A program made the translations under genes and the position numbers. Below, in pieces: positions 1-18,201 of a stretch of DNA of 64,000 bases. Each line of letters begins with the position of its first letter. The first letter of the stretch is position 1. Location of the stretch: the NCBI RefSeq assembly GCF_032999765.1, contig NZ_CP136051.1:6218501-6282500 (forward strand). The letters are read 5' to 3'. Below the pieces are notes generated by a model, which worked only from the letters and a program-made list of their open reading frames with translations, had not been told where the DNA came from and did not search any database. This DNA comes from Imperialibacter roseus. GTDB lineage: Bacteria; Bacteroidota; Bacteroidia; Cytophagales; Cyclobacteriaceae.

Positions 1-480
1 TCTCTGTACTCTTATTCTCACATCGGGGCTTGTAGCAACCTGCCCATCAGGCCCGTCTTGGAGCTTGGTGACGGTGGTTCCTTCCTGTCTATACAAGTCG
101 ATACCGTCTGCTGAGCCGTTTTCGCCAATTCTTATAAAATAGCCGTTCAAGCTGCCTAGGAGATCTTGTTGATCGCTGGCTATGTATACCCTGATGTTGT
201 TGCTGTTGGTGGGGTCGAAATTGAGCTTAACACTGAAATCCCAGGTCGTCCAATTCATAAACTCATTGATCGTGCTGATGTAGTATGACTCTGTTGCAGA
301 GGGCCCTTGGCTTTGGAGTTTATTCTCCGCAACGTTGAAAATAAAATAGCCCGTGCTCCCTTGCCATACAGGGTTTATACTCAAATCCCCATCCGAAAAA
401 TCATCAATTACCTGACAAAGAGAGTGAAATGAAAGACAAGAAGTGAGAATAATGGAGCAACAGATAGCTCTGAAAGTCAT
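1..480 (-). CDS. secreted protein, N-terminal part only (lamin-tail/gliding-type surface protein)
   Basis: A reading frame starts at the ATG whose complement is at 478-480 and stays open for 160 codons to the left edge, so the C-terminus is missing. The protein begins with a hydrophobic signal peptide (about residues 4-24, ending near SLCQ) followed by DDFSDGDLSINPVWQG, then WDFSVKLNFDP, NNIRVYIASDQ and GSLNGYFIRIGENG. From memory, this order resembles the N-terminal lectin-like region of large Bacteroidota exported proteins that often carry lamin-tail domains and a type IX secretion tail further on; those parts cannot be seen here. Family call is moderate, the existence of the gene is well supported. 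Confidence 0.75.
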   Translation of the reverse strand, partial: MTFRAICCSIILTSCLSFHSLCQVIDDFSDGDLSINPVWQGSTGYFIFNVAENKLQSQGPSATESYYISTINEFMNWTTWDFSVKLNFDPTNSNNIRVYIASDQQDLLGSLNGYFIRIGENGSADGIDLYRQEGTTVTKLQDGPDGQVATSPDVRIRVQR

Positions 481-689
481 AATTGAAAAAAGGTAGGTTG
501 GTATCTCAATATAGTCAATCTGATTATTTCAACTAATAATTAGCTGCTATAATTGATTTTTTCACTGTTATTATCGTGGGTAGCAGGTCTAATTCTCAAA
601 CTATTGCCTCATTGGGGCCATAGATTCGGTGTTTTTAAGTTGGCGTGAGGATGGTTTGCCGCAGAGAGAAGGAGAAGCGCAGTGAATGA

Positions 690-766
690 GTCCCGTAGGG
701 ACGGAACAGCGGTAAACCCCTGAACCCTATGCCAAACTCCTGCAAGTGCCGTAGGTACGGCATATA
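690..766. repeat. dispersed REP-like repeat, copy A
   Basis: Begins with the imperfect palindrome GTCCCGTAGGGAC followed by GGAACAGCGGTAAA, and ends with GTGCCGTAGGTACGGCATATA, which is itself palindromic at its core. A second copy lies at 4309-4385 with the same two ends and the same spacing; the middle (AACCCTATGCC against AACCATGCC) differs by a few changes. Two palindromes in a fixed 77-bp frame suggest a REP/BIME-like or RNA-folding element. Non-coding by appearance. Confidence 0.75.
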
Positions 767-799
767 AAATCCGGTTATGCGGCCCTCCCTCGAAACCCA

Positions 800-843
800 T
801 TAAAGAGGTTACTCTGTGCTCCAGGACAGAGTAACCTCTTTAA
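800..843. terminator. perfect 18-bp inverted repeat with 8-base loop (terminator-like)
   Basis: TTAAAGAGGTTACTCTGT at 800-817 is the exact reverse complement of 826-843; the loop is GCTCCAGG. The A/T ends of the stem (TTAAA and TTTAA) give it the form of a bidirectional intrinsic terminator. It sits between two divergent genes, where no transcript should end, so it may be a relic of a lost gene, end a small RNA, or insulate the two promoters. Confidence 0.65.
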
Positions 844-1021
844 TTTGGCACATTGTCAGTTTCCGAATCGGTCGAAGAACCTCTGGCCCCCAGCGCCACT
901 CTGCTGCAGCCCGTCGTTTTCAACTCGTCTGGGCTCTCGCTACTAGTTGTAAACTTGACAATCTCTTGCGCCGTCCGGTTCGCCAGCCAACCTAAATACT
1001 ATCTTTTCACTAATTTGCGCC

Positions 1022-2065
1022 ATGAGTGCAAGCGACATTCTTTTAGTCATCATTAGCGGTCTCGGCGTGACTCACGGATTGTTTATGGCCGTTATTTTAT
1101 GGCTGTACCCAAAAGGAAACCCCTTATCCAACAAACTTCTCAGCGGACTTTTAATTGTTTTGTCTTTCAGGGTGGGCAAATCAGTTTTTCTTGAGTTCAC
1201 TACCAGCACTGATATCAAAATCATATTTGTTGGTCTAAGTGCCATTATGGCTATTGGGCCACTGTACTATCTCTTTGCATTATCAAGCACGCAAAAATCG
1301 TTTCGATTGAAAGCCAAGCATGGTGTTCACTTTCTTCCTGCCGTTGTGGGGTTCATTGGCGGGTGGCAATTCGAGGAGCACCATGCGGAAACGTTGCCGA
1401 TGCTGCTGTTTATTTCGATCTTCCTGGCCTACTACCTCCATTTCCTGGTCTATTTATTAGTTACCTACCGGTATATTCTTCAACAAAGGAAAGCCGGATT
1501 GAATACCGATGTTTTTGATTTGCTGCGACTCCTCTTTTACGGGCTGCTGGCCATTTGGGTGGTGTATGTTTTGAACCTGCTGGATGAGTTTATCCCCTAC
1601 ATCATTGGCCCTATCCTCTATTCCATTGTGGCTTATGTTATCAGCTTTATTGTTTTCCGCAAAGGATATATCGAGCAGATTGATCAAACAAAATACAAGA
1701 CCACTCCGGTGACTGAGGAGCAGCGAGAGCAAATTTTTAAGAAGGTGCTAAAGCATATTGTTCATGAAAAGGAATACCAAAATCCAGGCCTTACCTTGAA
1801 GTCACTCAGCACCTCGCTGAACCTGAGTCCACAAATTGTGTCGCAGGTAATCAACCTCGAGAGTGGAAAGAACTTTAACCACTTTGTGAATACCTACCGC
1901 ATTGAGGAAGCCAGACACCTGCTCAAATTGGAGCACTTTAAAAACCAGACCATTGCCGCAGTGGCTTATGAAGTAGGCTTCAATAGTATCTCCAGCTTCA
2001 ATACTGCCTTCAAGAAGCTAACCGGAAAAACACCTGTGACCTTCCGCTCTGAGGTATCAAAATGA
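1022..2065 (+). CDS. AraC-family regulator with N-terminal multi-pass membrane domain
   Basis: 347 residues. The first about 215 residues are hydrophobic and hold roughly seven predicted membrane spans (for example DILLVIISGLGVTHGLFMAV and LLFYGLLAIWVVYVLNLL). The last about 110 residues form a double helix-turn-helix of AraC type: LTLKSLSTSLNLSPQIVSQVIN, then YRIEEARHLL, and the signature AVAYEVGFNSISSFNTAFKKLTGKTPVTFR. Proteins of this design are common in Bacteroidota and are thought to sense an envelope or membrane signal and bind DNA from the membrane. The DJ-1/PfpI gene starts about 80 bases downstream on the same strand and is the obvious candidate target. Ligand unknown. Confidence 0.9.
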   Translation: MSASDILLVIISGLGVTHGLFMAVILWLYPKGNPLSNKLLSGLLIVLSFRVGKSVFLEFTTSTDIKIIFVGLSAIMAIGPLYYLFALSSTQKSFRLKAKHGVHFLPAVVGFIGGWQFEEHHAETLPMLLFISIFLAYYLHFLVYLLVTYRYILQQRKAGLNTDVFDLLRLLFYGLLAIWVVYVLNLLDEFIPYIIGPILYSIVAYVISFIVFRKGYIEQIDQTKYKTTPVTEEQREQIFKKVLKHIVHEKEYQNPGLTLKSLSTSLNLSPQIVSQVINLESGKNFNHFVNTYRIEEARHLLKLEHFKNQTIAAVAYEVGFNSISSFNTAFKKLTGKTPVTFRSEVSK

Positions 2066-2144
2066 TCTTTTACTCTTTCGAAATGATCATTTGAGAAGCC
2101 TTTGACCCCGGACAGCTGCACATTTGTTTCAAAAACAAGTCGTT

Positions 2145-3242
2145 ATGTCTGGAAAAGGAAAACTGATCAAATGGTCACTCATTGTTGTTGGCGGGGTAAT
2201 TGTTTCTATTGTGCTTTTTGGAGTTTGGTTCATGAGTCTATTCCCTGACTTGCCCGAGTCGGCTGCAGCTATCAAAGCTACATCTCCCTCTGAGCTAACT
2301 TATCTCACCCAGGATGTAATACCACACCGTGGGAAAATACTGGCGGTGGTGACCAGCACCGCCGTGATGGGCAACAGCGACAAAGCCACAGGATACGAAC
2401 TCACAGAATTGGCGAGGGCCTATTACGTGTTTCAGGCAAATGGTTTTGAGGTGGACGTGGCTAGTCCTTTGGGCGGCACTCCCCCCGTGGTGATTGATGG
2501 CGATGATATGACAGCGCTCGATTATGCCTTTTTGAACGACCCATTGGCTCAGGCCAAAATGGCAGAAACCATCGCTATGAAGAATGTGGATGCCGACGCT
2601 TACGAGGCCATTTACTTCGTGGGTGGAAAAGGCGCCATGTTTGACTTCCCGGAAGATATTTACATTCAGTCTATTGTACAGGGATTTTACGAATCCGGAA
2701 AAGTAGTGGGTGCTGTTTGCCATGGGCCAGCCGCACTGGTTAATGTAACACTGACCAACGGAACCCCGCTTTTGGCCAACCAAACTGTTAGTGGATTTAC
2801 CAACCGGGAAGAATTGTTGCTCATTCCTGATGCGGCAGAGATATTTCCTTTTTTGCTCCAGGATAAGCTGACCGAGAAAGGCGCCGTTTTCAACGAGGGC
2901 TTTATATACCTCAATAGGGTGAGTAGAAACGGAAATCTTATCACGGGGCAAAACCCCTGGTCTACCTGGGCAGTAGCAGAGCAAATGATCGAACAAATGG
3001 GTTTTACGCCAAAAAGACGGGCCATTACCAGCGAAGAAAATACCATTGCGATACTGGAAGTGTATGAGACTGACGGTTACAGAAAGGCGAAAGCAGCTAT
3101 TGACGAGCGCTGCGCAGCCGACGTGACGTCCGTGGACAGGAAACTTCTTGCGATGCACAGCATTGTTGCTGCCATGCAGTTTGAGATGGTTAAGGCCATC
3201 AACTTAATCCGGTTGCTATCTTATAGTAACGGCTATTTGTAG
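2145..3242 (+). CDS. membrane-anchored DJ-1/PfpI family protein
   Basis: The start is placed at the ATG at 2145 (MSGKGKLIKWS); an in-frame TTG at 2124 would add seven residues. About 365 residues: a short cytoplasmic head, one N-terminal membrane span (SLIVVGGVIVSIVLFGVWF), then a class I glutamine-amidotransferase-like domain. The nucleophile elbow is GAVCHGPAAL with Cys192, and the conserved acidic residue of the family is in ATGYELTELARAYY. The family includes Hsp31-like glyoxalases/chaperones and cysteine hydrolases; which activity applies here cannot be read from sequence. The C-terminal about 70 residues beyond the domain are unusual and resemble nothing I recognise. Probably co-regulated with the upstream AraC gene. 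Confidence 0.85.
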   Translation: MSGKGKLIKWSLIVVGGVIVSIVLFGVWFMSLFPDLPESAAAIKATSPSELTYLTQDVIPHRGKILAVVTSTAVMGNSDKATGYELTELARAYYVFQANGFEVDVASPLGGTPPVVIDGDDMTALDYAFLNDPLAQAKMAETIAMKNVDADAYEAIYFVGGKGAMFDFPEDIYIQSIVQGFYESGKVVGAVCHGPAALVNVTLTNGTPLLANQTVSGFTNREELLLIPDAAEIFPFLLQDKLTEKGAVFNEGFIYLNRVSRNGNLITGQNPWSTWAVAEQMIEQMGFTPKRRAITSEENTIAILEVYETDGYRKAKAAIDERCAADVTSVDRKLLAMHSIVAAMQFEMVKAINLIRLLSYSNGYL

Positions 3243-3259
3243 GATGGAGGATTCAGATC

Positions 3260-3365
3260 ACCTCCACCCTCACCAAACCAACGTCATACCTGTCTGCCGA
3301 AACTAAGTGTAGGTGAGGCCGCTTCGCTATGATGACGTTGCTATGGAGGCTTCAGCAGATCGGCA
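3260..3365. repeat. dispersed intergenic repeat, CACCAAACCA family, copy 1
   Basis: Starts CCCTCACCAAACCAACGTCATACC and ends GATGACGTTGCTATGGAGGCTT, so the internal CGTCAT and ATGACG can pair and bring the ends together. Related copies are at about 4471-4560 and 4580-4690, and partly at 4118-4160 and 8124-8210. It fills the gap between the DJ-1 gene and hepT. Confidence 0.6.
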
Positions 3366-3420
3366 ACTTTGCCGGGAAGGCTGCCCAGGAAGCTTCGAAG
3401 TCATATATGCAAGCGAACGA

Positions 3421-3774
3421 TTACTCTGAGGAATACCCATCAAGAATCTCCTTCACTTTGTCCTTTAATTCAGGGATGTCATTCGTAAGGATCTCCCAAA
3501 CCAGGTTGGCGTCAATTCCGAAATATTCATGCACAAAAATGTTCCTCATACCAACAATTTGTGTCCATTCAACTGACGAAAAAATATTTTTTGTCTCGGC
3601 CGAGATATGATTGCTGGCCTCACCGACAATCTCTAGTTGCTTGATGCAAGCAAACCTCATCATTGAGTTGTCCATAAAGTCTGAAAAGCTTTTGCCAGCC
3701 ACGTACAATTCTATTTCAAGAATGGCATCATAGATATGCCGAAGCCTGACTTCGTCGCCCAGTCTACCTCGCAT
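3421..3774 (-). CDS. hepT: HepT-like HEPN ribonuclease toxin (DUF86)
   Basis: 117 residues from the ATG complementary to 3772-3774, which overlaps the end of the upstream antitoxin gene by 11 bases; a longer frame with 24 extra residues exists but lies inside mntA. The HEPN catalytic motif R-x4-H-x-Y is present as Arg77-NIFV-His82-E-Tyr84. In type VII (HEPN/MNT) systems the HEPN protein cuts RNA and the partner nucleotidyltransferase silences it by adding AMP to the motif tyrosine; Tyr84 fits that site. The overlap argues for translational coupling. It sits between dispersed repeats in the accessory pocket. Confidence 0.9.
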   Translation of the reverse strand: MRGRLGDEVRLRHIYDAILEIELYVAGKSFSDFMDNSMMRFACIKQLEIVGEASNHISAETKNIFSSVEWTQIVGMRNIFVHEYFGIDANLVWEILTNDIPELKDKVKEILDGYSSE

Positions 3775-4057
3775 AAATAAGCTGTTTTTCACTATCAACG
3801 ATCGGCTTAATGTAGTGCGAAAGTCCGTTGGAGGAAACCAGATCAACCGGAGAGCTCAGGAGCTTCTCCAGATCAATTTGCATCTGCACAAATTGAAGTC
3901 CTATTCTTTGTGAGTAATCAAGCTCAACTAATATATCTATATCACTTTCCTGATCTGCTTCATCTCTCACATAAGAGCCAAACAGATAGGCCTTTAAGAC
4001 AGGCCTTGTCTTAAAGTAGGTTTTGATGGTTTCTATTTTGTTGGCTTCCAATTTCAT
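3764..4057 (-). CDS. mntA: MntA-like minimal nucleotidyltransferase antitoxin
   Basis: 97 residues from the ATG complementary to 4055-4057. The frame is open much further upstream, but that extension reads through repeat sequence, so the internal Met is preferred. The nucleotidyltransferase signature GSx10DxD is complete (GSYVRDEADQESDID), followed by VELDYSQRIGLQF. In HEPN/MNT modules this protein neutralises HepT by AMPylation. The antitoxin gene comes first and overlaps hepT by 11 bases. Bases 4062-4085 upstream are AT-rich and probably hold the promoter. Confidence 0.9.
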   Translation of the reverse strand: MKLEANKIETIKTYFKTRPVLKAYLFGSYVRDEADQESDIDILVELDYSQRIGLQFVQMQIDLEKLLSSPVDLVSSNGLSHYIKPIVDSEKQLIYAR

Positions 4058-4308
4058 GGAGCTAAAATACAAAATTTGCGTCGCTAGTGGATCGTCATTG
4101 CATAAAATCATCCAACGAGGCAGCTCCGACCTCACCAAACCAGCATTGTGTCCAGCGGCTGGCAGGCAGGCCTGACCAACCGAAACGAAGGGCACACAAT
4201 TGGAGGGGGAGTTTACCGCAGAGGAAATCCTCCTACGCCAGAGACTTCGGTGGACAAAGACCACCTGCGCCAGAGGCTTCGGCGGGCAACGGAGGGATAC
4301 AAAGAAAA

Positions 4309-4385
4309 GTCCCGTAGGGACGGAACAGCGGTAAAACCCTGGAACCATGCCAATGTCCTGCGAGTGCCGTAGGTACGGCATATAG
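4309..4385. repeat. dispersed REP-like repeat, copy B
   Basis: Same structure as 690-766: GTCCCGTAGGGACGGAACAG at the left, GTGCCGTAGGTACGGCATATA at the right, 77 bp in total, with a handful of changes between. It stands in the same orientation as copy A, about 3.6 kb away. Confidence 0.75.
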
Positions 4386-4470
4386 AACCCGGGTAAGTGG
4401 GCCTGCCAGCCGAAATAGGGTTGTGAGCGGGGCCTACAATGATGTGCGGTAAGTCGATTGCGAAAGCCGG

Positions 4471-4560
4471 CCACATCCGCCCTCACCACACCGACGTTAT
4501 GCCGATTGCCCTTCGCTTCGAAATGGCGTTGCGATGGAGGCTTTAGCTGTTCCGCAGGTT
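4471..4560. repeat. dispersed intergenic repeat, CACCAAACCA family, copy 2
   Basis: Contains CACATCCGCCCTCACCACAC followed by CGACGTTATGCC, and ends with CGAAATGGCGTTGCGATGG then AGGCTTTAG, parallel to the copy at 3260-3365 (CTCACCAAACCA, then TTGCTATGGAGGCTT). Degenerate. Confidence 0.5.
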
Positions 4561-4579
4561 TCCATAAACGACATCCGAT

Positions 4580-4690
4580 CACATCCGCCCCCACCAAACC
4601 AGCGTCATACCGATTGCGAGTCATCCTGAGCTTGCCGAAACGAAGTGTAGGCATAGCCGAAGGGACGAGCGAGGTATCCCCAAGACCTGG
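4580..4690. repeat. dispersed intergenic repeat, CACCAAACCA family, copy 3
   Basis: Contains CCCCCACCAAACCAGCGTCA then TACCGATTGCG, followed by a different right half (TCATCCTGAGCTTGCCGAAA, CGAAGTGTAGG) that is shared with copy 1 (GCCGAAACTAAGTGTAGG). Its left end follows copy 2 almost directly, giving a tandem of related elements. Confidence 0.5.
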
Positions 4691-4891
4691 CACTAAAACG
4701 GGTAGGGCACTGTATCGGCGCTCGGCTGTAGGTCATGGAGATTTCTCTCCGCAGATTAGCGGCTTTGCTGGCGAGGCTCACTATGGAAGGTTCCTGGTGG
4801 TGTGTCAGTGGGGTGTGGCTCGATGAAATAACAGAAAATAAGCACGATTAGTAAATGAAGACAAAAGGCTAAGTTTTGCCAGCGTTTTGTG

Positions 4892-5143
4892 GGTTGCGCA
4901 ATACCCACCCCGTAGGTTGCGCAACCTCGCCTACATGGGTTGGGCAACCTGCACTACCTGTATTGCGCAACCCCGACCCCCGAGGTTGGGCAACCTGACC
5001 CCCGGGTATTGGGCAACCCCGGCGCCGCTCTTGCGCAATGGCGGCGCCACCCTTGGGCAACCGGCACCCCGAAGTTGCTCAGCACTGGTAGTTGGTATTG
5101 GGCGAGAGGGGTGGTGGAGGTTGGGCGTTCATTACTGGGCCGC
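4892..5143. repeat. tandem array of 11 units, 22-23 bp each, core TTGSGCAA
   Basis: The trinucleotide TTG opening each unit occurs at 4894, 4917, 4940, 4963, 4986, 5009, 5031, 5053, 5075, 5098 and 5121, that is, every 23 bp with three 22-bp steps. Units 1-8 keep TTG(C/G)GCAA, mostly followed by CC; units 9-11 are decayed to TTGCTCA or TTGGGCG. The remaining about 14 bases vary and are C-rich. In unit 2 the core is a perfect 14-bp palindrome, AGGTTGCGCAACCT. A period of 23 does not keep a reading frame, so the array is unlikely to be coding. It lies beyond the 3' end of the STAND gene. Confidence 0.8.
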
Positions 5144-5290
5144 AGTGAAATAGGATACAAGCTACAATTCCGTGACCGGCCTTGCATTGGGGTTTATTGC
5201 AATTGGCAAGTTTAGCCGCTTAGACTACTTCGGGAGTTTGATTAAAAGTCCTATGACGTGACTTCTAGTTTGCAAGTTTCGCACGCCGGA

Positions 5291-7672
5291 TTATGGTTCA
5301 AATAACTTATCAATTCTTTCGGATTCTGACTGGTGTTGATTCGTTCCTTGAGCCTTGCTTGTCCGAAAAAGATAACGACTATTTGGCAACTTATTGTCAG
5401 AAAAATATGAGGACGGAGGGTCGAATTCTTCCTGTTCGACATAAGCGCTTCTCATTATTTCTTCGACTATTTCATCCTCATTTATGTCAATGTTTTCAAA
5501 AATTTCCTCAAAATAATCGGCCATTTCAATTTCATCTAGAAAATCAGACAGCCTGTCGTTTAAGGAATCAGATACAATAGATCTCGCAAGACTTGAGAAA
5601 CCCTGACTTACTGTGTCTATTATTGTTTCTGCAGAATAGCGAGCGTTATCAATGAAGTCGTCAGTTACAGCGACTGCAACTGCTGCAAAGATTACTTCGC
5701 TATTATATTCATTTGACATAAAAACATTAAAATCCTGCTCGTAGCTTACAAACAAGCATTTAATCGCATGGAACTCTTCGCTGGCTCTAGCTACTTGATA
5801 GAGCGCAGATACTGTTTTGTCAAACCTAGGTAAGATAATTTTGCGTATCTTCTTATCAGAAGAGTACTTTTCCAGAATTGCCATCAAGTCATCTAACTGG
5901 CCATTTGAAACCTTCGTAGCATCAAATTTTGATAGATATGGAATTAACTCTTTCGTATCGAACTGGTCTTTGAGAAAGTGGCTATATAGTCTTAATATTT
6001 CTACCTCAAGAGAACAGTTAATATTGACTGTCTCGAAGTCAGGTGCCTTCGTTAATATATAGGTGTAAAGTTCTTTTGCCTCCTTTGGCGTGATGGGAAT
6101 GGAATCTTTTCTTGCCGGGCTGAAATAATTCGTTAATTGTTCTACATAATGGAAAGATTTCAGGATTCTCATTTTTTCAGCGCTTCTTTCCTTGATATAG
6201 CTGATTAAAAAATCACCTACAGACGGATTTAAAAAACTAAATGTGTTTGAATCGTGGTTGTTTTTTTCGGATACAATAAAACCGTCCAAGAGTTTTCTCA
6301 ATGAGGTGTTAAACGCATCATTATTAAGTTTGTGGCCATTTTCTTTAATTTCAAATCTCAACCTGTGCTCGAACGCCCTTTCGAGATGTTCTTGCTTGAT
6401 CTTATAACCTCCAAGGCTTAGAACAGTCGTTAATAGAAATCGATCATCATCAACTAATTGAGTTTCGAAGGCACCCTTCCAAATCTCGTTTGGGTAGTTC
6501 AAATTCTGAAAAATATGGTTGATATAATCAGTTTTGGTTTTAGGTAGGTGTCTACTGCTCGTTATAAACTCAATTAATCTGGGTGAATAATTTCGGTGCT
6601 CGATTATTTTAATGTAATTCCGATCCTGCCAGAACAGGTCATGGTATTCAGTTGGCAGGTCAGAGTGGTATAGATGATTATATAGGATTCTTGCTTTATC
6701 AAGCTTGGAATATTGTTTTAGTTCAACCTCGTATTGTGATATTCTTCCAAGCTTAGACTGACGTAGTTTCTCGAAATTGTGCTCTGCTTGGTTGAGAATT
6801 GTTGTTCTAGTAGTCAGTATGAGAAACTTGTTCTTTAGCGTTTTAATTCTTTCGATAAAACCGATGATTGCAGATTCTGAGTTTTTTGGATTTAAGATTT
6901 CGTAGATATTGGAACCTAGGAAATCATCAAAAAATATAACCTGTTTTTCTTCCGGGTCATCAGACAGAACGTCTTCTGCGTCTTTCAAGGAATCATCAAC
7001 ATACACTAAATTAAAATCTTGAGATAGCAACGAGCATATCAGTAAATAAGAAATAGTTGTTTTACCGACCCCAGGGTCTCCTGTGATAATTACGAACTTC
7101 TTTTCATTGAGAATTTTGACAGCCGCATCAAAATTCTGGGTTGGAACATAAAGGCTTAGTTTACTAAGAATTTTGCTTTCATGAAACTGTGACCTGCCTT
7201 TCACTGCATTGTTAAGAATTCGTTTAAGGATAACGGTACTTGCGAGCCATAATTTATTGTGTTTCTCAACGACATCAGGGTACTTACTTAAAAGGCTTTG
7301 TATTCTATCGAACGAGAAAATATCATTAGTTGACTTAATGAAGGGAGAAAAGAGACTCTTGATTTCATCCACCTGCATTGTGTTTAATGCTAGGGATGTA
7401 ACTAAAATATATCGAACTGGAACAGGCTGGAGTTTTTCTACCTTGGGCTTCTCATCATGCGCTAGGCTACGCTTTAGGTCAGAGTATTTGGAGTTAATGT
7501 AGTGTTTAACTTGAACTACTATCTTATTTTCCCTATCTGTTGAGTATCTCAGATCTATCCCTTTGTCTTTCCCTCGCTTGAAGTTTTGAAACGGTATGTT
7601 GAATTCTCTCTCAAGAAGATCTTTTGTCAGTTCCTCGAACTCTTTATCGTTTAGAATCTCCAGATGATACAC
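5291..7672 (-). CDS. restriction-endonuclease-like domain fused to STAND NTPase (nSTAND3-type), probable defence protein
   Basis: 793 residues. The start is a GTG complementary to 7670-7672; a stop lies 15 bases upstream in frame, so no longer start exists. Residues 1 to about 110 look like an Mrr-type PD-(D/E)xK nuclease: FEELTKDLLEREF helix, GKDKGID with Asp40, then QVKHY with Gln54 and Lys56. Next comes a P-loop GDPGVGKTT (Lys204), a Walker B VIFFDDFLG (Asp249, Asp250), and TTRTTIL as a likely sensor. The remaining about 450 residues are helical and acidic near the end, and should form the winged-helix and sensor part of a STAND protein. Such fusions are known or suspected anti-phage sensors that activate the nuclease when infection is detected. 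The gene is single, visibly AT-richer than asd beside it, and flanked by repeats, which suggests transfer. Much shorter than typical Avs proteins. Confidence 0.85.
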   Translation of the reverse strand: MYHLEILNDKEFEELTKDLLEREFNIPFQNFKRGKDKGIDLRYSTDRENKIVVQVKHYINSKYSDLKRSLAHDEKPKVEKLQPVPVRYILVTSLALNTMQVDEIKSLFSPFIKSTNDIFSFDRIQSLLSKYPDVVEKHNKLWLASTVILKRILNNAVKGRSQFHESKILSKLSLYVPTQNFDAAVKILNEKKFVIITGDPGVGKTTISYLLICSLLSQDFNLVYVDDSLKDAEDVLSDDPEEKQVIFFDDFLGSNIYEILNPKNSESAIIGFIERIKTLKNKFLILTTRTTILNQAEHNFEKLRQSKLGRISQYEVELKQYSKLDKARILYNHLYHSDLPTEYHDLFWQDRNYIKIIEHRNYSPRLIEFITSSRHLPKTKTDYINHIFQNLNYPNEIWKGAFETQLVDDDRFLLTTVLSLGGYKIKQEHLERAFEHRLRFEIKENGHKLNNDAFNTSLRKLLDGFIVSEKNNHDSNTFSFLNPSVGDFLISYIKERSAEKMRILKSFHYVEQLTNYFSPARKDSIPITPKEAKELYTYILTKAPDFETVNINCSLEVEILRLYSHFLKDQFDTKELIPYLSKFDATKVSNGQLDDLMAILEKYSSDKKIRKIILPRFDKTVSALYQVARASEEFHAIKCLFVSYEQDFNVFMSNEYNSEVIFAAVAVAVTDDFIDNARYSAETIIDTVSQGFSSLARSIVSDSLNDRLSDFLDEIEMADYFEEIFENIDINEDEIVEEIMRSAYVEQEEFDPPSSYFSDNKLPNSRYLFRTSKAQGTNQHQSESERIDKLFEP

Positions 7673-8123
7673 ATATAAAAGTATTTAAAAATATTGAAGA
7701 TACTTGCCCGTACAGTCATTGGTTTCTTCTCTCAACTGGAACTTGGTATCCAGAATTGAATATGAGCTTTTTGTTACAACTTGATCTGGTCTTCGTAATT
7801 TTCATTTCGAAGGCCTAACGTAGGCTCTGTGAGTCGCTGCGAAATGACTTGGTAATAAGGCTGTGGCGGGTTGGAAGTCTTCGTTTATCACCGGCATGCG
7901 CTCTGCGTGAGGGATAGCAGCGGAAAGCCCACAGGCCGAGGCACGAGGGTACGACGTACGAAGCGAGGACTTGGAGCGGATAGCCCGACCCCCGCCAAAC
8001 GGTTTTTGTTTCTTTCAGACGGAATATGGGTGGCGGGGGGCACGCCCAATGTACCCTCACCATCTTTATAAGGATTGTGTTGATGTGAAATGACATCCCC
8101 GAATAATTGTAGGAGCTACGATA

Positions 8124-8210
8124 GGCTCGGCTGTAGGTCAGGGGGATTTCTCCGTTCCGCTATCGCTCCACTGCGAAATGACGTGGGGGTGGAGGCTTCG
8201 GTGCATCAGC
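8124..8210. repeat. dispersed intergenic repeat, related to 4720-4750
   Basis: GCTCGGCTGTAGGTCA followed by GGGGGATTTCTCC is nearly the same as the piece starting at 4720 (GCTCGGCTGTAGGTCA, TGGAGATTTCTCT). Its right part, GCGAAATGACGTGGGGGTGG then AGGCTTCGG, matches the right end of the CACCAAACCA family. It links the repeats on both sides of the STAND gene. Confidence 0.55.
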
Positions 8211-8310
8211 AGCCTTTCAATAGAACTATCGGCACGCCCACATCAAAAAAATCACCCTACAATTTGCTCATTATCATAGGGGAAATCCGCTGGGCTTTAA
8301 TGATTTCTTT

Positions 8311-8318
8311 TACTTTTG
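8311..8318 (+). promoter_or_regulatory. candidate -7 box for asd
   Basis: TACTTTTG fits the Bacteroidota -7 consensus TAnnTTTG and lies 27 bases before the asd start codon. No clean TTTG box is seen at the expected -33 distance, so this is a weak call. Confidence 0.4.
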
Positions 8319-8345
8319 CACCTCAGTATTCAAAAATAAACGGAA

Positions 8346-9338
8346 ATGAAATTAGCGGTAGTAGGGGCCACAGGGCTTGTGGGCTCCGAGATGTTGAAAG
8401 TGCTGGAAGAAAGGAACTTCCACTTTGATGAGTTGTACCTGGTAGCGTCGGAACGCAGTGTCGGCACCCAAATAAAATACAAGGGTAAACAATACAGCGT
8501 GATTGGCATGCAAACGGCGGTGGACATAAAACCGGATATCGCTATTTTTTCGGCCGGTGGCAGCACGTCGCTGGAGTGGGCACCTAAGTTTGAGGCGGCA
8601 GGCAGCATTGTGATCGACAACTCGTCGGCCTGGAGGATGGATCCGACAAAAAAGCTGGTGGTGCCGGAGATCAATGGCAGCACGCTGCGCATCGACGACC
8701 GCATTATTGCCAACCCCAATTGCTCCACGATTCAGATGGTGATGGTGCTGGCACCGTTGCATAAGAAATATGGGATTAAAAGAGTGGTGGTGAGTACCTA
8801 CCAGTCGGTGACGGGCACGGGCAAAAAGGCCGTGGATCAGATGATGGCCGAGCGGGCTGGGCAATCGGAGCCGAAGGTATACCCTCACCCGATCGATATG
8901 AATGTGCTGCCGCACATTGACGTGTTCCTCGACAATGGCTACACAAAAGAGGAGATGAAGATGGTGAAGGAAACGACCAAGATTATGGGCGACGACAGTA
9001 TTAAGGTGACGGCGACTACGGTGCGTGTGCCTACCGTGGGCGGCCACAGCGAGGCGGTGAACGTGGAGTTTGTGAAGGACTTTGACCTGGCCGAGGTGCG
9101 TGACCTAATGAGCCACACGCCGGGCGTGGTGCTGCAGGACGAGCCATCGAAGAATATTTACCCGATGCCGATTTGGGCGCACAATAAAGATGAGGTGTTT
9201 GTAGGCCGGATCCGCCGGGATGAGTCGCAAGCGAACACGATCAATATGTGGATAGTGGCCGACAACCTGCGCAAGGGGGCTGCTACCAATGCGGTGCAAA
9301 TAGCGGAGTACCTGGTAGGAGCCAATCTGGTGTTTTGA
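8346..9338 (+). CDS. asd: aspartate-semialdehyde dehydrogenase
   Basis: 330 residues, normal length. It reduces aspartyl phosphate to aspartate semialdehyde with NADPH, the branch point to lysine/diaminopimelate, threonine and methionine; cytosolic. Seen: the nucleotide-binding start MKLAVVGATGLVGSEML, FSAGGSTS, VIDNSSAWRMD, and the active-site NPNCST with Cys126. The substrate region GGHSEAVNVEF holds the expected histidine. The next gene starts inside the asd stop codon, so the two are coupled. Confidence 0.97.
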   Translation: MKLAVVGATGLVGSEMLKVLEERNFHFDELYLVASERSVGTQIKYKGKQYSVIGMQTAVDIKPDIAIFSAGGSTSLEWAPKFEAAGSIVIDNSSAWRMDPTKKLVVPEINGSTLRIDDRIIANPNCSTIQMVMVLAPLHKKYGIKRVVVSTYQSVTGTGKKAVDQMMAERAGQSEPKVYPHPIDMNVLPHIDVFLDNGYTKEEMKMVKETTKIMGDDSIKVTATTVRVPTVGGHSEAVNVEFVKDFDLAEVRDLMSHTPGVVLQDEPSKNIYPMPIWAHNKDEVFVGRIRRDESQANTINMWIVADNLRKGAATNAVQIAEYLVGANLVF

Positions 9339-10522
9339 TTGAAGCGCTGAGCCAACCGGACGTTCAGGCCTTTTTGAAGGCCCATGCTACGGACAGTCCG
9401 GCGAAGCTTGCTTTGCAAAGGCACCTGCCGGGGGGCGTTAGTGCGTCCCTGCTGGCGTCACAACTGAAGGCCCGACAGAAGGCCAAAGACAAATTGCCAT
9501 CCTGGCTGAGCCGGGATGGCATTATTTTTCCCCATGGCGTAGCGCTGGAGCAGTGCTCGTCGGAAACAACGGCTGGTTTCAAAGCGGCCCGCTGGGCGGG
9601 CCAGTCCTTCGCCGACCTGACCGGGGGCACAGGCGTGGACACGTTTTTTTTCTCGCAGTCCTTTGAAAAAGGTGTGTATGTGGAGGCCGACGCCGAAAGG
9701 TGTGAGCTGGCCAGCCACAATTTTGGTGTGCTGGGCGTTGGGCATTTGCAGGTGGTGCTAAGCACGGCCGAGGCGTTTTTGGCTGACACTACCGACCACT
9801 ACGACTTCATCTATATCGACCCCGACCGCCGGGCGAACCACAAGCGGGCCATTGGCTTTAGCGACAGTACGCCCGACGTGGTGCAGCTGATGCCGGAGTT
9901 GCTGAAACGGGCGACCACCGTGCTGATAAAAGCCTCGCCCATGATCGACATCCAGCAGGGCCTCCGTGACCTGGGCACGGTGAGCAAGGTGCTGGTGCTG
10001 GCGGTGAACAACGAATGCAAGGAGGTGCTGTTTGAGTGTGGCAGCAGCGGCGGGCCGGTGGAGATAGAAGCCTGGCAGGTGCAGGGAGGGCAGGAGACTG
10101 TGCTGCGTTTTAGCCTGGAAGAGGAGGCGTCGGCTGGTGTGAGTTTCGGTGAACCGGAGGCCTTCATTTACGACCCCAACGTGGCCATTACCAAATCGGG
10201 CGCTTACAAAACGGTGGCCGTCCGCTATGGACTGAAGAAGCTGCACCCGAATACACATTTATATACGTCGGCCACGCTGGTCGAGGGCTTCCCCGGCCGG
10301 ACGTTCCGGGTGCTGGCCGTGCTGCCTTTTTCTTCGAAGGGGCTGAAGAGCTTGAAGCTGCCTTTTGCCAAAGCCCATGTGATGAGCAAAAACTTTCCCC
10401 TGGAAGCGGCAGAGCTTCAAAAGCGGCTGAAGCTGAAGGAGGGTGAGGAGGGTTTTGTGATGGGGGTCACTGTGGGGAGCGGGAAGGTGTTGGTGGTGGC
10501 GGAGCGGGTTGTGATAGCTTGA
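9335..10522 (+). CDS. class I SAM-dependent methyltransferase with THUMP-like C-terminal domain
   Basis: The preferred start is the TTG at 9335, whose last two bases overlap the asd stop (TTGA), giving about 395 residues; the frame is open further left only inside asd. SAM-binding motif I is FADLTGGTGVDTFFFS, then VYVEADAERCELA (motif II) and the catalytic-type FIYIDPDRRA. The C-terminal part (EAFIYDPNVAITKSGAYKTV onward, about 110 residues) fits the THUMP-like domain. By family this should be an RNA or related methyltransferase, but the substrate is not established. Very GC-rich, like asd; probably one transcript. It ends two bases short of the convergent barrel gene. Confidence 0.85.
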   Translation: MIEALSQPDVQAFLKAHATDSPAKLALQRHLPGGVSASLLASQLKARQKAKDKLPSWLSRDGIIFPHGVALEQCSSETTAGFKAARWAGQSFADLTGGTGVDTFFFSQSFEKGVYVEADAERCELASHNFGVLGVGHLQVVLSTAEAFLADTTDHYDFIYIDPDRRANHKRAIGFSDSTPDVVQLMPELLKRATTVLIKASPMIDIQQGLRDLGTVSKVLVLAVNNECKEVLFECGSSGGPVEIEAWQVQGGQETVLRFSLEEEASAGVSFGEPEAFIYDPNVAITKSGAYKTVAVRYGLKKLHPNTHLYTSATLVEGFPGRTFRVLAVLPFSSKGLKSLKLPFAKAHVMSKNFPLEAAELQKRLKLKEGEEGFVMGVTVGSGKVLVVAERVVIA

Positions 10523-10524
10523 GA

Positions 10525-11802
10525 CTAACGAACCCGAACACCAAAGCCTACCAAAAAGTCTTTCCTGTTCATTTTGAAACTGAGATTGCTCTTTATCTGG
10601 CTGTCATCAATATTATCGTAACGGCCAGCTTCACCAAATACATTCGCTTGCATCTGAGCAAAAATACCTATGTGCCTCCCAAGCTTTCCTTCCAGACCAG
10701 CAGCAGCCAGAAAACCAGGTTGAGGGCTTGCCGGCTCAAACTCGTAATAGTCTTCATCGTAGTAGCCTTCATATTGTACGTACCGTTTTCGTCCAACATC
10801 GCCCCCGTATTTCATTGATCTAAGGATCATGCCCGCCCGGACATATGGTGTGATTTTACTTTTTGAGAATAGCTCATAGTGGATTACCAGAGGGATTTTT
10901 GTCATTTTTCCGTCGATAACTACATCATTAACAGCCTCCGCAATGTTTCCATTAGGGAAAGCATATGGTACGTTATGCAAAAACGAATAGTCAAATTGCG
11001 AGAAGTTCATCCCTATCTCTACCATCAATCTCTCGCTAATTCTCGGAAGTAATATACCGATGGCAAAACCGGTTTGGCGAATCGAACTTTCTATAGGGCC
11101 ACTGCCTAGCAAGGTTTCGTCCCCGGTGGTGTTACCTGAATAATCGAATTTCATCTGCATCTGCCCAAAGTCGGTGTGCACAGAAGGCGCAAGCCTGAAA
11201 ATAGGTTTCTTTTTGAAAACTACCTCGTAGTCTGATCCTCGGCAGGTGTTGTATTGTTTAGTCAGAGCTATGAGTTTATCACGATTGACATTTGTAGATG
11301 AGGGAGATAGCTTAATTTCTGGACAATCTTGAAACAAATAGTTGAGAATACCATAGTGCACAAGGTTGGCTTTTGCATTGGTATATACACCATTCTGTTC
11401 CCGTATCATCGGAGTTGCCTCAAGCACTATGTAGGAGAGCGTGTCCTTTTTGAAAATGAAATGCTCTTTGTACATATATAAAGAGGTTTGCCCAACTACC
11501 AGCACCTCTATAAATTTCTTAGGCCGGTCAGGATCCACCTCGGAAATGGTCTCTGAAATAAAAAAGTTAAGCCCTTCAATACTAAAACCGCCAATCTCTC
11601 CAGGCGAGTACTTTACTATCTCACTACTGCCTTCTGCCTTGAATTGGCACTGAGAAAAATTAAGGTAAAAGTCTTTTTCGTTGATTTTCCCCCGTATGGT
11701 GTCGCCAGCGAGCGTGACAACAAACCCCTCTGTGAAGTTCTTTTGGCTGAACAGTGGAAATGACAGAATTGATAGAATCAGGAATAGTTGTAGCTTTTTC
11801 AT
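10525..11802 (-). CDS. exported outer-membrane beta-barrel protein (PorT-like)
   Basis: 425 residues from the ATG complementary to 11800-11802 (MKKLQLFLILSILSFPLFSQ, a typical signal peptide); the frame extends further upstream without plausible protein. The N-terminal half, with TLAGDTIRGKI and VKYSPGEIGGFSI, resembles a domain seen in many Bacteroidota barrel proteins. From about residue 220 alternating strands (FRLAPSVHTDFGQMQMKF, GFAIGILLPRISERLMVEIG, ITPYVRAGMIL) end in DFLVGFGVRVR, the expected barrel end. Function unknown; structural or adhesion roles are usual for this class. Confidence 0.8.
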   Translation of the reverse strand: MKKLQLFLILSILSFPLFSQKNFTEGFVVTLAGDTIRGKINEKDFYLNFSQCQFKAEGSSEIVKYSPGEIGGFSIEGLNFFISETISEVDPDRPKKFIEVLVVGQTSLYMYKEHFIFKKDTLSYIVLEATPMIREQNGVYTNAKANLVHYGILNYLFQDCPEIKLSPSSTNVNRDKLIALTKQYNTCRGSDYEVVFKKKPIFRLAPSVHTDFGQMQMKFDYSGNTTGDETLLGSGPIESSIRQTGFAIGILLPRISERLMVEIGMNFSQFDYSFLHNVPYAFPNGNIAEAVNDVVIDGKMTKIPLVIHYELFSKSKITPYVRAGMILRSMKYGGDVGRKRYVQYEGYYDEDYYEFEPASPQPGFLAAAGLEGKLGRHIGIFAQMQANVFGEAGRYDNIDDSQIKSNLSFKMNRKDFLVGFGVRVR

Positions 11803-12006
11803 GTAACATCGTATAGAAAGGCCAATAATACCTATTATATGATAATTTTTGCCTTTAGTAAGCTGCCTTTTTTTGGCTTTGTTATGCAATTTTTTTGACG
11901 GACACTTTCTGGTCGTGGGCAGTGATGCCGGGTGTGAGGGGGCAGTGGTCGTGAGTGAAGACACGCCCGGAAAACCATTAAATTGTTGACGACCTGGAAA
12001 ACTGTT

Positions 12007-12498
12007 ATGCCAATTATTCAGATAAAGATGGTAATTGAGGCTCCCATCGACAGATGCTTTGACCTTTCGAGAAGTATAGACCTGCATAAAATATCCACCA
12101 GTCAAACAGGAGAGGAAGCGATAGGAGGTGTGACGTCCGGTCTCATTGGGTTAAGTGAAACAGTGACCTGGAGGGCGAGGCACTTTGGCATCAGGCAAAC
12201 GCTGACAACAAAGATCACGGAATTTGAATCACCGAATTTCTTTGTGGACGAGATGCTGGAGGGTGCTTTCAAGAGATTTCGTCATGAACACCACTTCAGG
12301 GATGTTGATGGAAAAACTGAAATGCGGGACTGTTTTGATTATGATTCGCCACTTGGCATCCTTGGGAAAGTATTTGACTCGATTGTGCTTAAGAGGTATA
12401 TGCAGAACCTTTTGTTAAAACGTAATTTGGTTATCAAGGAATATGCGGAGTCAGATAGGTGGCAGGAAGTACTGAATACTAAAGAATCTGGCGGTTAA
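12007..12498 (+). CDS. SRPBCC-family protein
   Basis: 163 residues from the ATG at 12007 (MPIIQIKMVIEAPIDRCFDL); an upstream frame start at 11983 is less likely. The START-like fold shows in IEAPIDRCFDLSRSIDLH at the start, TVTWRARHFG in the middle, and the amphipathic C-terminal helix (LGKVFDSIVLKRYMQNLLLK). Members bind small hydrophobic ligands in a deep cavity; no catalytic residues can be named. Cytosolic. The next gene follows 13 bases later, so the pair is probably co-transcribed. Confidence 0.8.
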   Translation: MPIIQIKMVIEAPIDRCFDLSRSIDLHKISTSQTGEEAIGGVTSGLIGLSETVTWRARHFGIRQTLTTKITEFESPNFFVDEMLEGAFKRFRHEHHFRDVDGKTEMRDCFDYDSPLGILGKVFDSIVLKRYMQNLLLKRNLVIKEYAESDRWQEVLNTKESGG

Positions 12499-12511
12499 CA
12501 GGTAAGGAATA

Positions 12512-12901
12512 ATGTGGAAGCTCTATAAGTATCTATTTTTCAAGCTTTACCGCCTTGCAGTGAAAATGAACAAGGATACTACCCCCGAGTATACCGCATT
12601 CGTGTCCGTGGTAGCTTTGGTGTTTATGAATATACTTTCTATTGATGGTATATTAAAGCTTGCTGGAATGAGACCAGGGTTCTTAGATGGCCTCTCCACT
12701 CCCTCAGTTGTTGTCTTAATTATTGCACTTGGTGTACCTCAGTATTTTTTATTGATCCGTACTAGAAAATATGAAAAGATAGCCAAAGAATTTGACAACG
12801 AAAGTCTCACGAGGGCTCGAACTGGAGCAGCTTTGGTATTGTTCTACGTGATATTGTCGGTGTTTTCTATTTTCTTTTTTGGAGCCCAAGCCCACGTGTA
12901 G
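12512..12901 (+). CDS. small membrane protein, unknown function
   Basis: 129 residues with three hydrophobic spans: YTAFVSVVALVFMNILSI, PSVVVLIIALGVPQYFLLI and TGAALVLFYVILSVFSIFFF. Between spans two and three there is a charged stretch (RTRKYEKIAKEFDNES). I do not recognise a named family; similar small proteins are scattered in Bacteroidota genomes. Follows the SRPBCC gene closely. Confidence 0.7.
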   Translation: MWKLYKYLFFKLYRLAVKMNKDTTPEYTAFVSVVALVFMNILSIDGILKLAGMRPGFLDGLSTPSVVVLIIALGVPQYFLLIRTRKYEKIAKEFDNESLTRARTGAALVLFYVILSVFSIFFFGAQAHV

Positions 12902-12933
12902 GCTGAGGTTATAAAAAAGATTTGGAATCCATT

Positions 12934-14418
12934 TTAGGTAGTTTTTCTTTTTGAGAGGCTCACGAGCCCAAACCCCACACAAAATATCGCCGTCGTACTC
13001 AAAATGATGGTGAGGTTGGCATGGAAGGGGCTTTTGAAAGCAAGCCAACCGTCGGAGGTGAAGAATACGGGCGATAGGCTCAGCCACAGAATCACGAGCA
13101 CACCAACTACCACACCTATAGCTGCATGCACGCTTTTGGCTCTTTTGGAGATCACGCCCAAGAGGAAGAGGCCTAGCACACCACCGCTGAAGACGGACGA
13201 CAGTGCCCACCAGGCATCAAGAGCGCTGGTGACGCCGTTGAGGGCCAGGGCCACAAAAATACTGGTGCCGCCCATGGCAAAGGAGGCGGTAAGCAGCACC
13301 CGCATCGACTCTTTTTGGGTGGGTGCTCGGTTGAAGAACTTCTTATAGAAGTCGGATAGGATGACTGTGCCAGAACTATTGATACTGGTGGAGACTGTGC
13401 TCATGCCCGCCGCAAAAATAGAAGCGATCAGCAGTCCGGTGACGCCGGCAGGCAGACCGGTAACAATGAAGTAGGGGAATATTTTATCACCTGCACCTTG
13501 CAGTTCGGTGGGTAGCAGGCCGGGCTGGGCCTGGTAGTAGGCGAACAGGGCCGTGCCGATAAAAAAGAAAAGCAGGGACACTGGTACATACAATAAGCTG
13601 CCCAGCCATGTCGATTTCTCCGCTTCTTTTTGGGTGCGGGCGCTGAGGTAGCGCTGCACGTAGTTCTGGTCGATGCCGAAGTTTTGCAGGTTGATGAACA
13701 AGCCATAAATCAGCAGCAGCCAGAAGGTGGAGGTCGTAAAATCGAAGTCGAAGTTGCCCAGGCTGAACTTGTTGGCTTCGGAGGCAATGGTGAACACCTG
13801 GCCTGGTCCTTCGGGCATAGAAAACATGATGACGAGCAAGCTGGCCACCGCACCGCCAATGAGGATGATGCCCTGAATGGCGTCCGTCCAAACAACTGCT
13901 TCAAACCCACCAAGGCTTGCGTAAACAATCACACTGATACCTGTCACCACAATGATCAGGGGAATGCTCCAGCCCAGCAGGGCGCTCATGGGCAACGCCA
14001 GCAAATACATAATGGCACCCATACGGGCCAGCTGGGTCAAGAGGTAACAAATGGAAGCGTAGGTGCCAGCCCAGGGGCCAAAGCGTTGCTCCAGGTAAAA
14101 GTAAGCAGACTCGCTTTGCAACTTTCGATACAGAGGCACGAAATACTTCACAGCTACTATGGCTGCCAAAGGGATGGAAAGGCTGAAGACAAAGCCATTC
14201 CAGTTGCCCATATAGGCATTGCCCGGCAACGCCAGAAAGCTGATGCTGCTCACGAAGGTTGCAAAGATGGACATGCCAATGGCCCAGGCCGGCAGTCGGC
14301 CACCACCCAGGGTGTAGTCTTCGGCGGTTCGTTTCCGAAAGGAAAACGAGATGCCGAAGCCGATGATCAGCAGCATGTAAAAGAAGAAGATGGCCAGGTC
14401 AATAATTGGCAAGTCCAT
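12934..14418 (-). CDS. sodium:solute symporter (SSS family)
   Basis: 494 residues with about 13 membrane spans. The SSS signature is clear: RKRTAEDYTLGGGRLPAWAIGMSIFATFVSSISFLALPG near the start, LGGFEAVVWTDAIQGIILIGG, then NLQNFGIDQNYVQRYLSA and GLLIASIFAAGMSTVSTSINSSGTVILSDFYKK, which carry the sodium-site serines. It should bring an organic solute in with sodium. As last gene of a run with a sialidase-like protein, a YidR-like lipoprotein and a NanA/DapA-type aldolase, its cargo is likely a sugar acid, perhaps a sialic or keto-deoxy acid. E. coli yidK, near yidR, belongs to the same transporter family. Confidence 0.92.
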   Translation of the reverse strand: MDLPIIDLAIFFFYMLLIIGFGISFSFRKRTAEDYTLGGGRLPAWAIGMSIFATFVSSISFLALPGNAYMGNWNGFVFSLSIPLAAIVAVKYFVPLYRKLQSESAYFYLEQRFGPWAGTYASICYLLTQLARMGAIMYLLALPMSALLGWSIPLIIVVTGISVIVYASLGGFEAVVWTDAIQGIILIGGAVASLLVIMFSMPEGPGQVFTIASEANKFSLGNFDFDFTTSTFWLLLIYGLFINLQNFGIDQNYVQRYLSARTQKEAEKSTWLGSLLYVPVSLLFFFIGTALFAYYQAQPGLLPTELQGAGDKIFPYFIVTGLPAGVTGLLIASIFAAGMSTVSTSINSSGTVILSDFYKKFFNRAPTQKESMRVLLTASFAMGGTSIFVALALNGVTSALDAWWALSSVFSGGVLGLFLLGVISKRAKSVHAAIGVVVGVLVILWLSLSPVFFTSDGWLAFKSPFHANLTIILSTTAIFCVGFGLVSLSKRKTT

Positions 14419-14450
14419 GGTAAGTAGGTGTTAGTTGGGCGTTGGTATGG

Positions 14451-15395
14451 TTACAGTAAACCTCTTTTTTCAAGTGTTAATTTAAACTGTTCAATGATAG
14501 GCGTTACATGTTTTGTTTCAGCGGCGTCGAAGGCTGCCAGTGGCGGGGCCATGTGGCTTTGGCAAATGTTCATCAGCGACAAGGCAGCTTTGATGCTCTT
14601 CAGGTAGCTGGAGCTATACATGCCCACACCATAAAGGCTGTTGCTGATCTGCATCACTATGGCCTGCAGATCTGCGACGGTGGCAAAGTCTTTTTGTGCA
14701 GCGGCCTCATAAAGTTTTACAAACAGCTTCGGAAACATATTTGCTCCTCCGCTTACCCCGCCGTGGCCTCCCATCAATACCGACTCGGCCATGGCTTCCT
14801 CCGGCCCGACCAACAAGGTGAAGTCGGGTTTTCCCCGCAGCGACTGATATAGCGACTGAAAGTAAACCGAGTTCGCAGAGCTGTCTTTGAGTCCAATGAT
14901 ATTGGGGTGCTCGGAAAGCCGTATAGCCGTGCTTACCTCGATGTGCACTTTGCACAGCCCCGGCATATTGTAGAGGAACAGGGGCAGTGTCAGGCTTCCG
15001 GCCAGTTTTTCGTAGTAATTGAAGAGCTCCTTTTGGTTCAGGTTGAAATAATAGGGTGGTGCGGCTACTACTGCCGAGGCACCAGAAGCCTGGGCAGTTT
15101 CCGCCAAGCTAAGGCTTTCAGCAAGTGCTGTGTCGGTAATGCCCACCAGCACCGGTAGCCTGCCAGCCACTCGGCGACAAGTTTCTTTGATCAACTGATG
15201 ACGAATGGCATAGCTAAGGCTGGTGGATTCCCCAGAGCTACCCAGGATGAAAAGCCCGCTGACTCCGCCCGCAATCAGATGTTCCACCAGCTTGGTTAAC
15301 CCTTCTAAATCAAGACGCATGTCTTCCAGCAAAGGCGTTACCATGGGTGGAATGATGCCTGTGAGAGGTTGCTTTAGTTGTTCGTTGCGAGTCAT
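14451..15395 (-). CDS. dihydrodipicolinate synthase / N-acetylneuraminate lyase family aldolase
   Basis: 314 residues, the usual length of a single TIM barrel. Seen: GSSGESTSLSYAIR (phosphate or carboxylate loop), LYNMPG with the family tyrosine (Tyr142) and GLKDSS with the Schiff-base Lys170. The housekeeping DapA function is unlikely because the gene lies in a catabolic run with a symporter and a sialidase-like protein; cleavage of a 2-keto acid sugar into pyruvate and an aldehyde is more plausible. Substrate cannot be read from the sequence. 32 bases upstream of the symporter. Confidence 0.88.
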   Translation of the reverse strand: MTRNEQLKQPLTGIIPPMVTPLLEDMRLDLEGLTKLVEHLIAGGVSGLFILGSSGESTSLSYAIRHQLIKETCRRVAGRLPVLVGITDTALAESLSLAETAQASGASAVVAAPPYYFNLNQKELFNYYEKLAGSLTLPLFLYNMPGLCKVHIEVSTAIRLSEHPNIIGLKDSSANSVYFQSLYQSLRGKPDFTLLVGPEEAMAESVLMGGHGGVSGGANMFPKLFVKLYEAAAQKDFATVADLQAIVMQISNSLYGVGMYSSSYLKSIKAALSLMNICQSHMAPPLAAFDAAETKHVTPIIEQFKLTLEKRGLL

Positions 15396-15413
15396 ATAGT
15401 TGCGTTCAAAAAT

Positions 15414-16811: not shown

Positions 16812-16822
16812 TTTTGCAAGGT

Positions 16823-18001: not shown

Positions 18002-18201
18002 TCAGTGTTGTTGGTGGTCGCAAACAAAAGGACGGCTCGCTCTTACGAAGATCAGCCTTTAAAGAGATCAACCACTATCTACTTTTGCCAATAAATTGTA
18101 TGATTTTGACATATTGACGTTTTATGTCGGGCAAAAAGTGGCAACTTTATACTTAATAGTTTGCTTGCACCACTTCACAGGCGGCAATCAATACATTATT
18201 T
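18002..18201. promoter_or_regulatory. divergent control region of the catabolic operon and its AraC regulator
   Basis: 200 bases between two divergent start codons. It holds a short dyad GACATA (18108-18113) and TATGTC (18123-18128), nine bases apart, and a TACTTTTG box at 18080-18087. Neither is strong alone, but this is the natural place for the AraC protein to bind. Confidence 0.4.

Follow-up and report, generated by a model that had tools for sequence, protein, structure and literature searches.

The 793-residue protein described here, from Imperialibacter roseus, is best read as an NLR-like anti-phage sensor encoded by one gene, a member of the PDC-S73 family, in which self-assembly would license an Mrr-type nuclease, a reading to which we give a probability of about 0.72. 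Its gene lies in a window of 64,000 nucleotides, the whole stretch of contig NZ_CP136051.1 that was analysed. At the level of sequence, the case is built from the domains of the protein, the invariance of their active sites, the hypervariability of the sensor, the conservation of a short C-terminal tail, and a distribution that is both sparse and mobile. Against the NLR-like reading stand the lack of a recognised sensor fold, the low TM-scores of the structural matches and a window without a clear defence island.

The limits of the open reading frame are exactly those given in the initial annotation, which named no strand; the minus strand is added here. An effector, a P-loop NTPase and a helical C-terminal sensor follow one another in the layout of STAND/NLR-like proteins, as judged by Pfam, motifs and Foldseek (Table 1). 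Asp40, Gln54-x-Lys56, Lys204 and Asp249-Asp250 occupy the positions first assigned to them, and the HMM searches proposed at that stage recovered both the Mrr-like N-terminus, with Mrr_cat at residues 8-60 (E 1.1e-6; 29.2 bits against a Pfam cut-off of 21), and the STAND core, with nSTAND3 (PF20720) above the Pfam curated cut-off. The SIR2 family is absent from the Pfam matches of the protein, its N-terminus being Mrr_cat. Both Mrr_cat and nSTAND3 are present in all 25 aligned sequences, the window protein included. Across a larger set of 46 sequences, in which these 25 are joined by 11 that viral contigs and 10 that plasmids contributed, residues D40, Q54, K56, K204, D249, D250, R289 and H359 are identical throughout (46/46) and E13 is kept in 45; active-site identity of this extent argues that the domain architecture is not a product of chance. 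The plasmid sequences were picked by eye for diversity from 50 matching records. Excluded from the set were duplicates (L001, L010 and L035 of the window protein, and L040 of L016), the short L043 (574 aa), L015 with its internal stops, the weak or short matches L018 to L031, the more distant or partial L112 to L115, and L054, which is full length and has the tail IERMF. L015, from genome G267, is a broken family copy with two TAA stops within the matching frame. A search of window positions 1-20000 with Rfam and a tRNA scan of the window returned no matches.

Table 1. Features of the gene, with positions in the window and the basis of each assignment.
Feature	Residues (key positions)	Window positions	Strand	Basis
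Whole gene	793 aa, GTG start	5291..7672	minus	ORF and end-to-end PDC-S73 match
Mrr-type nuclease	1-110 (E13, D40, Q54, K56)	7343..7672	minus	Mrr_cat and conservation
Helical linker	111-173	7154..7342	minus	predicted model; with the nuclease, matches start of PADLOC PDLC02400
nSTAND3 NTPase	175-336 (K204, D249, D250, R289)	6665..7150	minus	Pfam PF20720, E 2.1e-51
Helical/winged-helix-like region	341-495 (H359, P364-R365, P483-S484-D487)	6188..6652	minus	conservation, model
Hypervariable helical sensor	496-747	5432..6187	minus	low pairwise identity, no fold match
Disordered linker	748-782	5327..5431	minus	pLDDT <50 at 748-779; acidic in family
C-terminal tail	783-793 (IDKLF 787-791)	5294..5326	minus	motif in 44/46; model helix 783-790

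The gene is, by profile, a member of a kind that is already catalogued. Residues 2-792 align with positions 4-750 of the 752 in the PADLOC candidate PDC-S73 (PDLC05079; E 3.1e-168), a full-length match with no difference that breaks membership. The description of the protein as a "probable new" sensor consequently does not stand, since PADLOC already holds PDC-S73 and Mrr_cat-STAND proteins are named in PMC9122126. Family members are about 740-800 residues long and span Bacteroidota, Pseudomonadota, Actinomycetota, Spirochaetota and Chlorobiota. By eye, no partner gene is constant across eight genome-contig loci, as befits a single-gene system, and the neighbours vary from locus to locus, with the exception of the near-identical L003 and L008. 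Anti-phage protection by PDC-S73 is a prediction that carries candidate status. The PDCs were derived by "guilt-by-embedding" and most still await validation, according to a paper on archaeal defence (PMC12988326), and two other PDCs are termed uncharacterised in PMC12482510. In the open literature, with preprints and most subscription papers outside the scope of the search, no tested PDC-S73 member appeared among the titles and abstracts listed, and the name itself was absent; the accessible parts of PMC9519451, PMC7159879, PMC12724215 and PMC13141931 report no tested family member.

An AlphaFold2 model built from a 21-sequence alignment (mean pLDDT 81.4, pTM 0.55) places an alpha/beta N-terminus, a helical linker and the NTPase ahead of a helical region whose residues 466-480 form a beta hairpin, after which come further helices, the low-confidence stretch and the final helix listed in Table 1. 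The long helical C-terminus first described from the letters alone is borne out, residues 341-793 being mostly helical in the model, and the winged-helix-like character of residues 341-495 is our reading of the part that holds the hairpin. Compared with solved structures by Foldseek, the full model comes closest to human SAMD9 (E 2.8e-9), Avs4 (E 2.3e-8), two AVAST5 filament chains (E 4.7e-8 and 6.8e-8), Avs3, tomato NRC2, CED-4 and NRC4. TM-scores to the named solved STAND proteins are low (0.16-0.29), so that these matches support the identity of the domains but not their overall arrangement. In the suggested structural comparison with Avs sensors, the full model matches Avs4, Avs5 and Avs3, and the C-terminal 298-residue fragment matches nothing in the PDB at E<=0.001. 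These last 298 residues likewise have no Pfam match at E<=0.01, which agrees with the earlier view that they hold no named repeat. A single-sequence search of the PDB gave four weak matches (three McrB and one phosphatase) and a profile search gave 252, most of the best 60 of these 252 falling on the P-loop. In a viral structure library there were eight matches at E<=0.001, headed by an NLR-like phage protein and including several others named ATPases. By analogy with STAND/NLR-like proteins, nucleotide-driven assembly is predicted.

Avs4 carries an Mrr-like nuclease and is about 1500-1600 residues in length, with a portal-reading C-terminus. The window protein has the same order of nuclease, STAND NTPase and helical sensor, with an Mrr-like nuclease ahead of the NTPase, in addition to the fold match given above. 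Membership of Avs4 is nevertheless ruled out by profile and by size, the solved Avs4 chain having 1534 residues against 793, about twice the length, as had been said at the outset; PADLOC matches up to E 1 include no family named Avs. By NTPase family, the closer tested relative is Avs5 (AVAST type 5) rather than Avs4. Avs5 shares with the window protein the nSTAND3 domain (PF20720), an N-terminal effector and a helical C-terminus, and its solved chains are of 767-768 residues; it differs in having Walker A at 357-364 rather than 198-205, and its effector is SIR2 rather than an Mrr nuclease, which rules out membership. In PMC12931631, the Avs5 NTPase is identified as PF20720, Avs5 immunity requires the P-loop, and Avs5 C-termini are predicted to be TPR/Sel1/PPR, unlike the window C-terminus with its lack of Pfam matches; the same paper states that the nuclease effectors of Avs1-4 cut phage and host genomes. 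Mrr_cat nucleases on STAND NTPases with C-terminal repeats are named at a P4 satellite hotspot in PMC9122126, and these resemble the window protein, by description only, in placing a nuclease effector on a STAND NTPase.

The N-terminal part has a further likeness, to a nuclease-linker module of the same type. Residues 2-173 match (E 9.7e-39) the first 171 positions of PDLC02400 (Aga_TIR-PNTD1-PNTD2, Argonaute-associated), the remainder of which is a different protein, with TIR_2 and without nSTAND3. At E<=1e-45, PDLC02400 is matched in two of 395 phylum genomes, only over positions 181-623 and by TIR proteins without the nuclease part (L102 and L103, which carry TIR_2 and match positions 183-623 and 181-621, respectively). 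Nuclease and linker together may thus be a transferable cassette. nSTAND3 itself is found at E<=1e-14 in 13 of the 395 phylum genomes, and two of the proteins concerned, in frames about 1200 residues long, differ at the N-terminus.

Divergence is distributed very unevenly along the family. Mean pairwise identity over 1035 pairs is 34.2% in residues 1-495 and 12.5% in residues 496-781, and the three closest homologues are 55-56% identical to the window protein in the core as against 19-20% in the sensor; the lower identity of the sensor is as expected under arms-race pressure. This difference bears on the possibility that the protein acts in the manner of type IV restriction, the nuclease cutting modified or foreign DNA on contact and the other parts, NTPase and C-terminus, serving to recognise or clamp the DNA. 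The Mrr catalytic domain is indeed common to type IV (Mrr) enzymes and the window protein, Mrr_cat is a restriction-endonuclease family, and among the matches listed PLSDB labels most homologues "restriction endonuclease". The NTPase, however, belongs to nSTAND3 and its fold comparisons lead to Avs and NLR proteins; divergence is also much quicker in the C-terminus than in the core, which does not suit a part that reads DNA in a fixed way. We regard direct restriction of this kind as unlikely.

At the end of this variable region is a conserved tail, a feature absent from the initial annotation. The motif [ILVY]xx[LIM]F, ending no more than 14 residues from the C-terminus, is present in 44 of 46 homologues, and when the last 45 residues were shuffled 500 times it appeared in a mean of 2.3 and a maximum of 8; a stricter form, [IVL][DENSHR]x[LIM]F, is present in 37 of the 46 against a shuffle mean of 0.8, although with related sequences such shuffles test composition and not independence. 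The columns flanking the motif, at mean pairwise identities of about 0.07 to 0.20, provide a fairer control, and F791 is the sole invariant column of the 298-residue C-terminal fragment in the 21-sequence alignment. The linker before the motif is acidic, the 40 residues ahead of the motif containing on average 27.3% D+E compared with 15.5% overall (n=44). The two sequences without the motif are L013, which has FENYF in its place (an aromatic variant, noted post hoc), and L086, which is 23% identical over the matching part. Outside the 46, a distant Mrr-like nSTAND3 protein (L113/L120) ends ...RSMFDDIDLH, which does not fit the motif, and the tail is absent from L118 and L119, longer nSTAND3 proteins that differ at the N-terminus. 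Block 781-790 has a pLDDT of 83 in the full model, against 56 for block 776-785 and 71 for block 786-793 when the C-terminus is modelled by itself; the comparison, between blocks that do not exactly coincide, leans weakly towards contact of the tail with N-terminal parts. Two known kinds of terminal motif were considered and dropped: a sliding-clamp motif, whose leading Gln is missing, and an SSB-tail motif, whose terminal Phe is missing. In literature that was searched without the founding publication of PDC-S73 itself, no prior description of the tail motif was found. What is new here, as read from the aligned sequences, is the combination of a hypervariable sensor with a strictly kept short C-terminal motif, which may act as a latch or docking element.

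Homologues are carried by mobile elements, being matched in 50 of 72,556 plasmid records (29 typed conjugative), in 2 of 50,697 phage genomes and at 13 loci in viral contigs. On viral contigs, the homologue of L055 is flanked by P2-type terminase and portal genes on one side and a replication gene on the other, that of L051 directly follows a CI repressor gene, and that of L053 adjoins a type III restriction gene. Two further viral-contig homologues adjoin a phrog_1268 DNA polymerase gene, UmuC-like by eye (L046 4497-5774 and L050 3890-5221), and on a Prosthecochloris plasmid (L077 553-1925 and 4001-6304) the homologue is about 2 kb from the avd and reverse transcriptase genes of a diversity-generating retroelement. 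At E<=1e-10, 15 of 24 neighbours of relatives match PADLOC, compared with one of six window neighbours (the MNT gene) and, as a control, one of ten more distant window genes, the neighbours having been picked by eye so that the counts are not a random sample. Gabija, Lamassu and AbiE genes stand beside homologues, as do type III restriction genes and candidate systems. A defence-type neighbour at E<=1e-30 occurs at five of the eight genome-contig loci (L002, L003, L004, L008 and L009); at L005 the neighbour is a weak match (E 1e-11) and the family is present twice, and no PADLOC match was found among the two and one neighbours checked at L006 and L007, respectively. The two diverged PDC-S73 homologues of L005 (Pedobacter soli; 7992-10373 and 14570-16885) are on opposite strands within 9 kb, and by eye a recombinase-like gene adjoins one of them. 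Carriage on plasmids and phage-like contigs, as in L051, would suit a defence against plasmids or rival prophages, or a stress-triggered cell death, with the same NLR-like mechanics and a trigger other than an infecting lytic phage; the company of Gabija, Lamassu, AbiE and type III restriction genes instead speaks for a role that is at least partly phage defence, and leaves such a trigger rather improbable.

In the window itself, the gene has a HepT/MNT pair and asd closest to it; the surroundings are housekeeping-type genes. The pair (3421-4058, minus strand, about 1.2 kb from the gene; Pfam HepT-like and Polbeta) appears, from these matches, toxin-antitoxin-like; its MNT part matches PADLOC PDC-S09 (E 5.7e-20), and the MNT start near 4058 is our own reading. 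The site beside asd is a variable pocket when the window is compared with the same-genus genome G692, in which the asd block is 90% identical and yet no homologue is found at E<=1e-20. Upstream of asd, G692 has different genes (L076 8125-13187), among them a PIN_3/HTH_17 pair and two that by eye encode a sensor kinase and a response regulator. Of 196 genomes in the family, 3 have a homologue at E<=1e-20, own genome included. PDC-S73 is matched at E<=1e-40 in 9 of 395 phylum genomes, and in the order 22 of 291 genomes pass E 1e-3, 8 of them below 1e-40, both sets again including the own genome. The core tree places the window protein in one group (100/100) with sequences of Pedobacter cryoconitis and two Flavobacterium, apart from same-order homologues. 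The gene is AT-rich, as first reported, with GC of 36.6% and GC3 of 36.8% against 47.0% for the window, both the lowest among the 41 window ORFs of at least 150 aa. Horizontal gain is well supported by the sparse spread, the absence from G692, the tree and the low GC and GC3. The gene is also repeat-flanked, as had been pointed out, but the repeats have no bearing on gain: they belong to a dispersed intergenic family of the host, seen in the window at 4187-4510 and about 654-845, and the 4187-4510 sequence matches its own genome at 21 places, counting itself, with similar sequence in G692, which leaves a mobile element bounded by them unsupported. Just downstream of the gene end, an array of TTGNGCAACC with about 23-base, partly irregular spacing occupies 4894-5071. 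A housekeeping DNA-repair protein, which the pairing of nuclease and NTPase might suggest since it also occurs in repair, is ruled out for practical purposes, because G692 has no match at E<=1e-20, only 3 of 196 family genomes have a homologue where such a gene would need orthologues at one site in most relatives, and the nearest kin are in other families. The broader first impression, of a compact, horizontally gained nuclease-STAND protein with a predicted role in defence, is well supported by the domains, sparse spread, neighbours and tree.

For the NLR-like anti-phage sensor, we infer a defence function, trigger, mode of assembly, DNA target and tail partner along the following lines. At rest, the NTPase would be held closed by the helical C-terminus until a phage product met the fast-evolving helical sensor. 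The nSTAND3 module would then exchange nucleotide and self-assemble in an ATP-driven manner, and the Mrr nucleases gathered in this way would cut phage and/or host DNA and so end the infection. On this reading the protein would operate in the manner of Avs4 and Avs5 while being classed with neither. The tail on its acidic linker is probably an intramolecular latch or an assembly contact. A more specific and decidedly tentative form of this idea is that the acidic strap, held in place by the conserved I-x-x-L-F helix, covers the nuclease as a DNA mimic until the sensor meets a phage product or, alternatively, that the tail docks a conserved host protein guarded by the sensor.

PDC-S73 is half the size of Avs4 and has a nuclease in place of the SIR2 of Avs5, and it offers a tractable case of how an NLR-like protein restrains a DNA-cutting effector while its sensor diverges. 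The tail, the part that specialists may not expect, provides a concrete handle on this question in the form of a single Phe that is invariant within a C-terminus of about 300 residues where nothing else is conserved. If the latch is real, a single fixed lock would let the sensor vary freely while the nuclease stays restrained.
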